Program-made: the position numbers and the translations under genes | Shown: positions 49,892 through 55,180 of the stretch, one piece after another | How the letters are laid out: the number at the start of each line of letters is the position of its first letter | How positions within the stretch are numbered: the first letter of the stretch is position 1 | The notes under the pieces: generated by a model | Told to the model about the DNA's origin: nothing | Databases searched by the model: none | Seen by the model: the letters and a program-made list of their open reading frames with translations, nothing else | NCBI RefSeq assembly: GCF_004354915.1 | Contig: NZ_SMSI01000001.1 | Coordinates: forward strand, 124,001 to 188,000 | DNA length: 64,000 nt | Reading direction: 5' to 3' | DNA from: Pseudohoeflea suaedae | GTDB taxonomy: Bacteria > Pseudomonadota > Alphaproteobacteria > Rhizobiales > Rhizobiaceae

Positions 49892-50214
49892 GCTTCGCTC
49901 GTCTGGACGATATGGGTGCGCCAACCCGCCGATCAAGCCTCCCGGCGACCGCAACACCCCGCCGAGCTTGACTTTCCGGTCCATCTCCTGTTTAAGCGCA
50001 GCGAATTCTGCGACGAGCTTATTGCGAGCCGCCGACCGGGGCGCCCGAAGGGGCCGATCCCGGAGGTCAACACCCGACAGCGCGATGCGCCCTCGGGTGC
50101 CGTTCGGCTTTGTGCATGGCCCGTCCTCGAAGACGCGGAAGGCGCGCGGTTTGGCGCAGCGCCCTTTGCGGCCCATATGAGCCGGAGGAAACTCCGGAAC
50201 GTTAGGACGATTGG

Positions 50215-51798
50215 ATGTTCGAAAACCTTCAGGATCGCCTTGGATCCATTCTCAACGGGCTGACCGGCCGCGGTGCGCTGTCGGAAAAGGACGTCGCCCA
50301 GGCGATGCGCGAAATCCGCCGCGCCTTGCTGGAAGCCGACGTCGCCCTCGAGGTGGTGCGCGACTTCACTGAAAAGGTCCGCGAAAAGGCCATCGGCGCG
50401 CAGGTCGTCAAGTCGATCAAACCCGGCCAGATGGTCGTCAAGATCGTCCATGACGAACTGGTCGAGATGCTGGGATCCGAAGGGATCGGCATAGATCTGC
50501 ATGCAGCCGCGCCCGTGGTCATCATGATGGTTGGCCTGCAGGGCTCGGGCAAGACGACGACATCGGCGAAAATCGCCAAGCGTCTGGAAACCCGGGACCG
50601 CAAGAAGGTCCTGATGGCCTCGCTCGACACCCGTCGTCCGGCTGCCCAGGAACAGCTCAGGCAGCTCGGCGAGCAGGCCAGCGTCGACACGCTGCCGGTC
50701 ATCGCCGGCCAGTCGCCGACCGATATCGCCGCGCGTGCGGTGCAGGCAGCCAGGCTCGGCGGCCATGACGTCGTCATTCTCGATACCGCGGGCCGTACCC
50801 ATATCGACGAGCCGCTGATGGTCGAGATGGCCGATATCAAGGCCCGTTCGAACCCGCATGAAATCCTGCTTGTCGCCGATTCGTTGACCGGTCAGGACGC
50901 CGTCAACCTCGCCCGCAATTTCGACGAACGCGTCGGCATCACCGGTCTCGTTCTGACCCGCATGGACGGCGACGGCCGCGGCGGCGCGGCGCTTTCCATG
51001 CGCGCGGTCACCGGCAAGCCGGTCAAGCTGATCGGTACCGGCGAGAAGATGGACGCGCTGGAAGAGTTCTATCCGCGCCGCATCGCCGACCGCATCCTCG
51101 GCATGGGCGACATCGTCTCGCTCGTGGAGAAGGCGTCGGAAGCCATCGACGCCGAACAGGCGCAGGCGATGGCCGCGCGGATGAAGGCCGGCAAGTTCGA
51201 CCTCAACGACCTCGCCGACCAGCTTCGCCAGATGCAGAAGCTCGGCGGCATGGGTGGCATCATGGGCATGATGCCGGGCATGGGGAAGATGAAGGATCAG
51301 ATGGCCGCCGCCGGCATGGACGATTCCATCTTCAACCGCCAGCTCGCCATCATTTCCTCGATGACCCGCGCCGAGCGCGCCAATCCCGACATCCTCAAAC
51401 ATTCGCGCAAGAAGCGCATTGCCGCCGGTTCCGGCACCGACGCAGCCCAGATCAACAAGCTTCTCAAGATGCACCGGCAGATGGCCGACATGATGAAAGC
51501 CATGGGCGGCAAGGGCAAGAAGGGCGGCATGATGAAGGGCCTGATGGGCGGCATGGCCGGCAAGATGGGTCTTGGCGGCATGGGTGGAATGGGCGGCATG
51601 CCCGATCTTTCCAAGATGAGCCCGAAGGAACTCGAAGCACTGCAGAAGCAGGCCGAGGCGGTCGGTCTCGGCAAGATGCCGGGCGGCGGACTTCCGGGCA
51701 TGCCTGGCGGCAAGCTGCCGGGTCTCGGTGGCCCGGGTGGCCCGGGTGGATTGCCCGGCATGGGCGGCGGCCTTCCCGGCCTGCCGAAGAAGAAATGA
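50215..51798 (+). CDS. ffh: Signal recognition particle protein Ffh
   Basis: 527 residues. N domain (MFENLQDRLGSILNGLTGRGALSEKDV), GTPase motifs GLQGSGKTTTSAK, DTAGRTH, TRMDGDGRGG, then the methionine-rich M domain (about 330-430). The C-terminal 90 residues are an unusually long Gly/Met/Pro tail (GGMGGMGGMPDL, GGPGGPGG). It binds signal sequences and 4.5S RNA and docks on FtsY. Stop overlaps the next start (ATGA). Confidence 0.96.
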   Translation: MFENLQDRLGSILNGLTGRGALSEKDVAQAMREIRRALLEADVALEVVRDFTEKVREKAIGAQVVKSIKPGQMVVKIVHDELVEMLGSEGIGIDLHAAAPVVIMMVGLQGSGKTTTSAKIAKRLETRDRKKVLMASLDTRRPAAQEQLRQLGEQASVDTLPVIAGQSPTDIAARAVQAARLGGHDVVILDTAGRTHIDEPLMVEMADIKARSNPHEILLVADSLTGQDAVNLARNFDERVGITGLVLTRMDGDGRGGAALSMRAVTGKPVKLIGTGEKMDALEEFYPRRIADRILGMGDIVSLVEKASEAIDAEQAQAMAARMKAGKFDLNDLADQLRQMQKLGGMGGIMGMMPGMGKMKDQMAAAGMDDSIFNRQLAIISSMTRAERANPDILKHSRKKRIAAGSGTDAAQINKLLKMHRQMADMMKAMGGKGKKGGMMKGLMGGMAGKMGLGGMGGMGGMPDLSKMSPKELEALQKQAEAVGLGKMPGGGLPGMPGGKLPGLGGPGGPGGLPGMGGGLPGLPKKK

Positions 51799-52118
51799 GC
51801 GGTGATGGCGCGATGACACAGGCAGAGGCCATTCAGCAGCTCTCCGAATACCGGCGGTCTATCGACAATTACGATGCCGCGCTGATCCACATTCTGGCCG
51901 AAAGGTTCCGCTGCACCAAGGCGGTGGGACGCCTGAAGGCCACCAACGATCTTCCTCCCGGCGATCCGGAGCGGGAGAAATACCAGATCGAACGGCTGCG
52001 CCAGCTGGCCCGCGATGCCGATCTCGATCCGGACTTCGCCGAGACTTTCCTGAACTTCGTGATCAAGGAAGTCATCCAGCATCACAAGGCCATCGCCGCC
52101 GAACTGAGCGACGACTGA
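51795..52118 (+). CDS. AroQ-type chorismate mutase
   Basis: 107 residues, all-alpha. [51 protein letters not shown] shows the helices and the Arg/Lys/Glu active-site pattern of AroQ mutases; chorismate to prephenate. It is coupled to ffh by an ATGA overlap, a rhizobial arrangement with no obvious functional link. M7 is an alternative start. Confidence 0.92.
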
Positions 52119-52135
52119 GCCTTACCCGAAGAAAG

Positions 52136-52205
52136 CGGGCGCAAGCGCCCGTCAACAAGAATGGGCGCCGAGCGCCCGAGACCACGAAATGGGTGCGAAG
52201 CACCC
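52136..52205 (+). promoter_or_regulatory. Three tandem hairpins in the rpsP leader
   Basis: Three short stem-loops spaced about 27 nt apart: CGGGCGC-AA-GCGCCCG (52136-52151), GGGCGC-CGA-GCGCCC (52163-52177), GGGTGC-GAA-GCACCC (52191-52205). The third differs from the others by a compensated C-G to T-A change, which argues the fold is kept. They lie in the 112-nt gap before rpsP and could be a processing or autoregulatory leader. Confidence 0.6.
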
Positions 52206-52230
52206 GCGACATTGCCTAAGGAGAAACAAC

Positions 52231-52644
52231 ATGGCACTGAAAATTCGTCTGGCCCGCGGCGGCTCCAAGAAGCGCCCGTACTACCACGTCGTCATCGCCG
52301 ACGTCCGCAGCCCGCGTGACGGCCGCTTCATCGAGAAGATCGGCCACTGGAACCCGATGCTGCCGCGCGATTCCGAAAACCGCGTCGAGATCGACACCGA
52401 CCGCGCCAAGCATTGGATCGAAAACGGCGCCGTGCCGACCGACCGTGTTGCCCGCTTCCTCGCCGAGGCCGGCCTGGTGGAGCGTGATGCCCGCAACAAC
52501 CCCAACAAGGCGAAGCCGGGCAAGAAGGCTCAGGAACGCGAAGCCGAGCGCAAGGCCAAGCAGGAAGAAGCCGCTGCAGCCGCTGCCGAAGCAGCCGCCG
52601 CTCCGGCTGAAGAAGCACCGGCCGAGGAAGCAGCCGCCGAGTAA
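52231..52644 (+). CDS. rpsP: 30S ribosomal protein S16
   Basis: 137 residues from ATG 52231, AAGGAG 10 nt upstream. The first about 80 residues are the S16 fold ([38 protein letters not shown]). A 45-residue tail rich in Ala and Glu (from about 90) is beyond the core and typical of alphaproteobacteria. Followed by rimM. Confidence 0.97.
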
Positions 52645-52784
52645 TCCGGCGCTCTTTCGAAACCTTTGCATCGGGCGGCCTTCCGGCGACGGAACGGCCG
52701 CCCGACTTGCCTTCGCGGACCTCTCCGCGCACAGTCCGGGACGTCAGACTTGTCGAAACGGCGCCTCCGGAAGGACATCGGACC

Positions 52785-53399
52785 ATGAAGTCTTTGCTAA
52801 ACCCCGTTCTCGTCGGCGTGATCGGTGCCCCGCAGGGAATCCGGGGCGAGCTGCGGGTCAAGCCCTATACCGACGAACCGACAGCCCTTGCCGGCTACGG
52901 CGTGCTCCACGACGCCAAGGGCGAGCGCTACGAAGTGCTGTCGGCCCGCCCCAACGGCAATGTCGTCGTTCTGCGCCTGATGGGGGTCAACGACCGCAAC
53001 CAGGCCGAGGCGATGCGCGGCATCGAGCTGTTTGTCGACCGCTCCAGCCTGCCGGATGACGAACTCGAGGAAGACGAGTTCTTCCATGCCGACCTCGAGG
53101 GCCTTGAAGCCTTCGACGCCGAAGGCAGGTCCTGGGGGGTCATTACCGCGATCTTCGATTTCGGCGGCGGCGATCTGCTCGAGTTGCGGGGAGCAAACGG
53201 CAAGTCCGTCGTCATCCCCTTCTCGCTCGCAGCGGTGCCGGAGATCGATATCGAGGCCGGCCGCATTCTCGTCGACCCCGACGCAGCCGGTCTGCTCGAC
53301 GACGGCAGCGAGGCGCAGGCCAACGAGCAGCCCGCGCCGGCCAGGAAGCCGCGCAAGCCCAAGCAGAAGCCGAAATCCGGCGGAGACGGCGCGGCATGA
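52785..53399 (+). CDS. rimM: Ribosome maturation factor RimM
   Basis: 204 residues from ATG 52785. N-terminal [25 protein letters not shown] and the PRC-barrel domain ([14 protein letters not shown]...[17 protein letters not shown]...IPFS...VPEIDI) are complete; a basic Lys/Pro tail ([13 protein letters not shown]) ends the protein. Acts in 16S 3' domain assembly with S19. Overlaps trmD by 4 nt. Confidence 0.96.
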
Positions 53400-54098: not shown

Positions 54099-54839
54099 TC
54101 AGTTGGTGAAATAGTACCAGCTGAGCGCCAGCCCCACGGCGATGACGGCCGCCCGGATGATTGCTTGCGGCACCCGGCGCGCGGCCCATACCCCGGCATA
54201 ACCGCCGAGCGCGCCGGCGGGGATCATGATGGCGGCCGGCAGCCAGGCAACGACGCCTCCGGTGAAGAACACGCAGATGGCAACCCCCGCGATCAGCACC
54301 GCGGCGAAGTTCTTGATGGCGTTGAGCCGGTGATAGTCCCCGCCCTTCGACAGGCCGAGCACGGCGAGCATCATGATGCCCATGCCCGCGCCGAAGAACC
54401 CGCCATAGATCGAGGTCGCGAATTGCGCGATCCAGCCATCGATTCCCATCGGCCGGTCCTGCGCACGCTTGATCTTGATATAGGGTCCGACCGCAAACAG
54501 CATGGTGGCTGCAATCAGCAGCCACGGAACGATCTGCTTGAAGGCCGGATTGGAAAGCGACAGCAGCGTCAGCGAACCCACGATGGCGCCGAGGATCGAA
54601 AGGCCTCCGATCAGCATGACCTCGCGGAAATCGCGACGGATCTCGTCGCGATAAGCGAGCACCGAAGTCACATAGCCGGGAAATTGTGTGACCGACGACG
54701 TGGCATTCGCCATGATCGGCGGAACGCCTGTCAGGCTCATCGCGCCAAAGGTCAGGAACGTGCCGCCACCGGCGATTGCATTGACGGCGCTGGCCACGAA
54801 GCCGGCGGAAAACAGGAGAATGATATCGAAGATCGGCAT
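54099..54839 (-). CDS. TSUP (TauE/SafE)-family membrane transporter
   Basis: 246 residues from ATG 54839, 8 hydrophobic segments. N-terminal GFVASAVNAIAGGGTFLTFGAM and the repeat motif YGGFFGAGMGIMMLAVLGL are the internal duplicated signature of the sulfite/sulfonate exporter family. Substrate unknown. It lies between trmD and rplS in the opposite direction, its end only 4 nt from trmD, so it breaks the usual trmD-rplS continuity. Confidence 0.92.
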   Translation of the reverse strand: MPIFDIILLFSAGFVASAVNAIAGGGTFLTFGAMSLTGVPPIMANATSSVTQFPGYVTSVLAYRDEIRRDFREVMLIGGLSILGAIVGSLTLLSLSNPAFKQIVPWLLIAATMLFAVGPYIKIKRAQDRPMGIDGWIAQFATSIYGGFFGAGMGIMMLAVLGLSKGGDYHRLNAIKNFAAVLIAGVAICVFFTGGVVAWLPAAIMIPAGALGGYAGVWAARRVPQAIIRAAVIAVGLALSWYYFTN

Positions 54840-55180
54840 GAAGGCGCCTTGCGGAAGCGGATGCCCGACCGAATGCCGGTCGGGACGGAGGCCCGGATTT
54901 AGCCGAATTCGCAATGCACCAGCAATAGACAACGACGCTGGCCCCGTCGAGAATCTCGGCGTTCGGGCGTGACAAGCGGGGAAAACTGGTGTAAATGCCC
55001 GCCCGGATCGGGGTCTACCCGGCAACCGTCAATCAATGAATGGCGTATTCGCTCCTGTCCGGAAGCGGTCACAAACCTCGACCGGACAAGACTTGAAGGG
55101 ATGGCTCCCCTGATGGAGCATGAACCGACAGGTCCACGCAGAGCGCTCTGGCTGTCGAGAACAAATAAAAGGTTCGTCCG
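54840..55180. other. Intergenic region upstream of rplS
   Basis: 341 bp. A hairpin CCCGACCG (54864-54871) / CGGTCGGG (54877-54884) belongs to the TSUP 5' region. The rplS side carries a short ORF from 55113 (ATG) whose TGA at 55182-55184 overlaps the rplS start, and AAAGG before rplS at 8 nt. Separate rplS promoter required; none was clear. Confidence 0.5.

Follow-up and report, generated by a model that had tools for sequence, protein, structure and literature searches.

In the puf mRNA of Rhodobacter, intercistronic hairpins give segments of the message different stabilities, their protective effect having been shown by experiment, and RNase E cleaves the operon message in AU-rich sequence (PMC6238624; PMC7509114). 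In Clostridium cellulolyticum, rpsP itself is among five genes named as having a processed stem-loop and transcripts more abundant than those of any other gene of the same operon (PMC4423207). A structured leader that precedes rpsP has been proposed in the Flavobacteria, and this motif is the only form in which an S16 leader occurs in the literature we searched (PMC7247131). A 2024 review notes the lack of information on how the trmD operon, to which rpsP belongs, is regulated (PMC10931766). Intercistronic hairpins are known as a kind, and the rpsP instance described below appears to be undescribed, as we found no account of the rhizobial rpsP gap or leader in the open literature searched. Rhizobia also carry palindromic repeats of the REP/RIME type, which are small palindromes that lie in gaps.

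The locus considered here, in Pseudohoeflea suaedae, has three tandem hairpins in the gap that separates a chorismate mutase gene (aroQ) from rpsP, and it resembles each of these systems in part. As in the Rhodobacter puf operon, stable stem-loops of an alphaproteobacterial operon lie between genes needed in different amounts; unlike there, the stems are short (5-8 bp), the context is A-rich rather than AU-rich, and the array is known here from sequence alone. It shares with C. cellulolyticum a stem-loop, in most cases lacking a U run, that bounds the rpsP part of an operon (PMC4423207), although in that distant phylum the stem-loop lies 3' of the gene and has mapped processed ends, whereas our array lies 5' and is a feature of the sequence. 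Like the flavobacterial leader, it is a structured RNA before rpsP, but that leader is a conserved covarying motif (PMC7247131), whereas the array has no conserved sequence or fixed structure. Some relatives do carry apparent insertions of the REP/RIME kind in the same aroQ-rpsP gap, unlike the array's own unit, which is not dispersed in its genome.

The hairpin array between aroQ and rpsP

Positions below are those of the window, the whole 64,000-nt stretch of DNA that was analysed. With ffh (50215-51798) upstream of the chorismate mutase gene, and rimM and trmD downstream of rpsP, the locus is the ffh-aroQ-rpsP-rimM-trmD neighbourhood. The gap between aroQ and rpsP measures 112 nt (52119-52230), and the array spans 52135-52206 within it, with 16 nt before it and 24 nt, which include the Shine-Dalgarno sequence, after it. 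The features are as follows.

51795-52118, + strand: chorismate mutase type II gene (aroQ-like; Pfam CM_2, E 2.8e-21), upstream neighbour of the array
52135-52152, + strand: hairpin 1, GCGGGCG-caag-CGCCCGT
52153-52161, + strand: linker 1, A-rich, CAACAAGAA
52162-52178, + strand: hairpin 2, TGGGCGC-cga-GCGCCCG
52179-52189, + strand: linker 2, A-rich, AGACCACGAAA
52190-52206, + strand: hairpin 3, proximal to rpsP, TGGGTGC-gaa-GCACCCG, with a compensated U-A pair
52218-52223, + strand: Shine-Dalgarno sequence of rpsP, AAGGAG, read from the sequence, 11 nt after hairpin 3
52231-52644, + strand: rpsP, ribosomal protein S16 (Pfam Ribosomal_S16, E 4.3e-26)
52672-52704, + strand: strong hairpin after rpsP, CGGGCGGCCTTCCG-GCGA-CGGAACGGCCGCCCG, one bulge, -30.1 kcal/mol

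The array that the initial annotation had placed in the aroQ-rpsP leader was confirmed at these coordinates, as was the compensated change claimed for its third stem, hairpin 3 having a U-A pair where hairpin 2 has C-G. The regular spacing of 27 nt held for the first start-to-start interval (27 nt), but the second is 28 nt. The remark that the array resembles no known ribosomal leader also stands, since a search of Rfam 15 at both gathering and permissive thresholds returned no leader family, the hits being the upstream ffh RNA and sub-threshold noise. The ffh RNA (RF01793), at 50056-50107 on the + strand, shortly precedes ffh and heads the operon; it scores 65.9 bits against a gathering threshold of 35. 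Elsewhere in the same genome the stem pattern of the array unit has nine other matches, mostly within long open frames, against eight for a reversed control pattern, which speaks against a dispersed palindromic repeat of the REP/RIME type with many genomic copies.

The RNA fold has a z of -4.38, and none of 200 dinucleotide shuffles folded as well. Three hairpins arose in 16 of 2000 dinucleotide shuffles and in 18-24 of 2000 block shuffles that kept local composition, and their summed stability of -33.4 kcal/mol was reached by none of 2000 shuffles of either kind. Loose clusters (three 6-bp stems in 90 nt) are common in this G+C-rich DNA, the window holding about 20 with 16 expected; what is unusual in the array is its strength, repetition and place, not the mere clustering of three stems. 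Because their stems are alike, hairpins 1 and 2 can pair with each other, and the predicted minimum joins them into one long interrupted hairpin (-45.8 kcal/mol); limiting the pairing distance to 30 nt, which is nearer to co-transcriptional folding, gives three local hairpins (-40.5 kcal/mol).

Hairpins before rpsP in related genomes

Four genomes of the same genus provided three usable leaders, those of the window, G001 and G002, and G003 was left out as its rpsP is cut at a contig end. The hairpin count falls from three in the window to two in G001 and one in G002. G001, the nearest relative (S16 96% identical), has CGGGCA-cgaa-TGCCCG and TGGGCG-cacg-CGCCCG in the same context, the first of which differs from hairpin 1 of the window in two ways: a G-C pair has become A-U, with both arms changed, and the outer wobble pair is missing. 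G002 (S16 83%) has a single unrelated hairpin, GCCGGAC-gctggt-GTCCGGC. Judging from these leaders, the genus keeps the presence of a hairpin, and not the number or spacing of hairpins. The initial annotation would have taken stems and spacing absent from close relatives as pointing to a chance local duplication; number and spacing are indeed lost, but chance duplication is not indicated, because hairpins recur across the family at the same place with unrelated sequence. Three or four hairpins are found in Martelella (L004, L007, L009), three in Pararhizobium haloflavum (L015, counting one over the stop codon), and two to four in genus g14 (L108, L189, L213), where the arrays are made partly of a longer palindrome, and the stems of all of these are unrelated to those of the window.

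We surveyed about 200 rpsP loci from Rhizobiaceae and neighbours, in 168 of which chorismate mutase lies directly upstream. The 93 representative leaders hold 78 hairpins where 26.7 were expected, and at least three hairpins occur in six of them (0.24 expected). Over a fixed stretch from -75 to -10 in 106 distinct chorismate mutase-rpsP leaders, with local composition kept in the expectation, we counted 100 hairpins against 28.8-30.8 (3.2-3.5 times), and 56 strong ones, defined as -8 kcal/mol or better, against 5.5 (ten times). These excesses, together with the two hairpins and one compensated pair of G001, bear out the earlier view of a selected structure for the hairpins as a class. Run before frr, tsf and rplQ, the same composition-matched test yielded observed counts only 1.2-1.6 times those expected, and strong hairpins exceeded expectation by less than at rpsP; on these counts rpsP is a pronounced case of a general trend. 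At least one hairpin is present in 75% of the leaders both at rpsP (97/129) and in these three controls (59/79), since chance alone produces more hairpins in the control gaps, where A is less frequent; the case therefore relies on composition-matched counts, strength and position rather than on raw incidence. Approximately a quarter of the family leaders have no hairpin under the criteria used.

Position is the more regular property. Hairpin coverage peaks between -45 and -30, at 0.41-0.43 against 0.08 expected, and is almost nil from -25 to -10, the hairpins ending at about -27, which, given the extent of the 30S initiation footprint, is consistent with structures held clear of the initiating subunit. 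The proximal hairpin and the Shine-Dalgarno sequence are usually 11-15 nt apart (mode 12-14). Unpaired leader and linkers consist of 41% A and 13% T, with 20% A in the gaps of the window. A T run follows a + strand stem in 1 of 54 cases, which rules out a sense intrinsic terminator. Across the family leaders no common stem or loop sequence was found and copies range from 0 to 4; in these leaders, what is conserved is architecture and place, not hairpin number or sequence.

The covariation that the array seemed to display is weak among close relatives, where the pair-level signal does not exceed the control. Among near neighbours, pairing survives 24 of 73 one-sided stem changes, compared with 171 of 552 in a slid control (p 0.79), and 5 of 8 double changes, compared with 10 of 35 (p 0.10), the latter difference being suggestive only. 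The stems therefore turn over, and because they do so while the architecture stays, this is a structured region that covariation-based motif finders would miss.

What the array may do

Tentatively, at a probability of roughly 0.45, we favour an intercistronic array by which the rpsP part of an ffh-aroQ-rpsP message would be protected or marked off, along the lines of the processing between the ffh and rpsP messages that the initial annotation had raised. Its hairpins probably act as spacers that set cutting and protection of the message, and not as a site where S16 binds. The three genes would be transcribed together, and an endonuclease such as RNase E would cut the A-rich linkers or the message upstream. 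After the cut, the rpsP segment would begin with a hairpin that slows RNase E, where this depends on the 5' end, and RNase J, and the ffh-aroQ segment would finish with one that acts as a barrier to 3' exonucleolytic decay. With a further hairpin at its 3' end, the rpsP segment could then outlive its low-demand neighbours, and the level of S16 would be affected. The array has in common with stabilizing and processing hairpins a stable stem-loop between co-directional genes, the lack of a U run, and a position kept in relatives beyond chance. The genome has an RNase E/G family match above the curated cut-off and an RNase J-type (MG423) match of 364 bits, below the cut-off of 400 bits. A single transcript for aroQ and rpsP is supported, weakly, by the lack of any sigma-70-like promoter match in 51700-52850.

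At the other end of the gene, 142 of the 151 distinct regions 3' of rpsP have a strong hairpin within 130 nt, with a T run after it in 59 by a strict count; in many relatives it resembles an intrinsic terminator, typically a GGGCGGC-type stem and then TTTT. The window and G001 have the stem, with loops GCGA and GTAA, but a poor T run, which suggests read-through into rimM past the hairpin at 52672-52704. Hairpins before and after rpsP would offer a simple route to S16 amounts that fit the ribosome from an operon shared with low-demand genes. A bolder version, in which a sequence-free array of 0-4 copies, conserved in place and foldability only, sets S16 output with a copy number adjustable between species, strikes us as speculative and rather improbable.

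Among the alternatives, a neutral or mutational origin, perhaps with weak selection, deserves the most attention, unlikely as we consider it. The hairpins would have arisen by local duplication, by template switching that perfects palindromes, or by insertion of a palindromic repeat, in a gap that tolerates them. Template switching within palindromes can itself yield compensated pairs, and the pair in hairpin 3 would then owe nothing to selection. Copy numbers of 3, 2 and 1 within one genus, the weak pair-level covariation and the resemblance of some relatives' hairpins to inserted palindromes all agree with such an origin, and units 2 and 3, which are 78% similar over 23 nt, suggest a local duplication. 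It does not readily explain an excess far above chance and above the three control gaps, the strict exclusion of hairpins from -25 to -10, the arrays with unrelated stems in separate genera, or a unit without dispersed relatives in its genome.

We regard as improbable a role in translation, whereby the hairpins would end or insulate translation of aroQ, or keep unfolded an A-rich standby site from which 30S subunits load onto rpsP. A hairpin does cover the aroQ stop codon in 30 of the 93 representative leaders, and the A-rich spacers and usual distance to the Shine-Dalgarno sequence would suit a standby site, but the tandem copies are left unexplained by this reading alone. The array stems leave the Shine-Dalgarno sequence uncovered, and its predicted accessibility is independent of the array (0.76 with the native array, 0.80 with it shuffled and 0.91 with it deleted), which also gives no support to an array that insulates this sequence or improves access to it.

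Antisense terminators, in which minus-strand stems are followed by T-rich tracts, are very unlikely: two of the three stems look terminator-like on the minus strand, but A-richness is alike on both sides of the stems (3.4 vs 3.7 of 8), and the simplest account of the minus-strand T tracts is that they follow from an A-rich leader. Feedback by S16, which the initial annotation had raised and in which the protein would bind the hairpins and repress its own translation, has the least to commend it, because copy number (0-4 over the family), stems and loops vary freely with no common loop, bulge or stem sequence that could form a conserved bindable motif, and because the leader has no Rfam match and its stems stand off the Shine-Dalgarno sequence, even though the array lies directly before rpsP and an S16 leader has been proposed in Flavobacteria (PMC7247131).

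Other features of the locus and its relatives

Within 52213-52237, GGCA at the start codon is complementary to a UGCC that precedes the rpsP Shine-Dalgarno sequence, and pairing of the two would place the Shine-Dalgarno sequence in a loop; GCC and ATGGC are both present in 59 of 167 relatives' rpsP leaders. Further downstream, a 308-aa open reading frame of the - strand (54099-55025) sits between trmD and rplS and splits the usual rpsP-rimM-trmD-rplS order.

In Mesorhizobium and Rhizobium (L039, L040, L045, L048, L054, L078; L033, L053, L074, L075) the aroQ-rpsP gap carries palindrome-like insertions of about 45-50 nt. These are probably dispersed repeats and may represent rhizobial palindromic repeats (e.g., L040, L045, L053). 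The g14 leader of L213 contains a 46-nt palindrome, GCATCGGACCG...TCCGATGC, with a near copy in a sister genome (G142:C13:318013-318058). In many relatives with a short gap (L020, L028, L044, L089, L096, L101, L218), the aroQ stop codon itself lies in the loop or stem of a hairpin, as in CCGCC-tgac-GGCGG.
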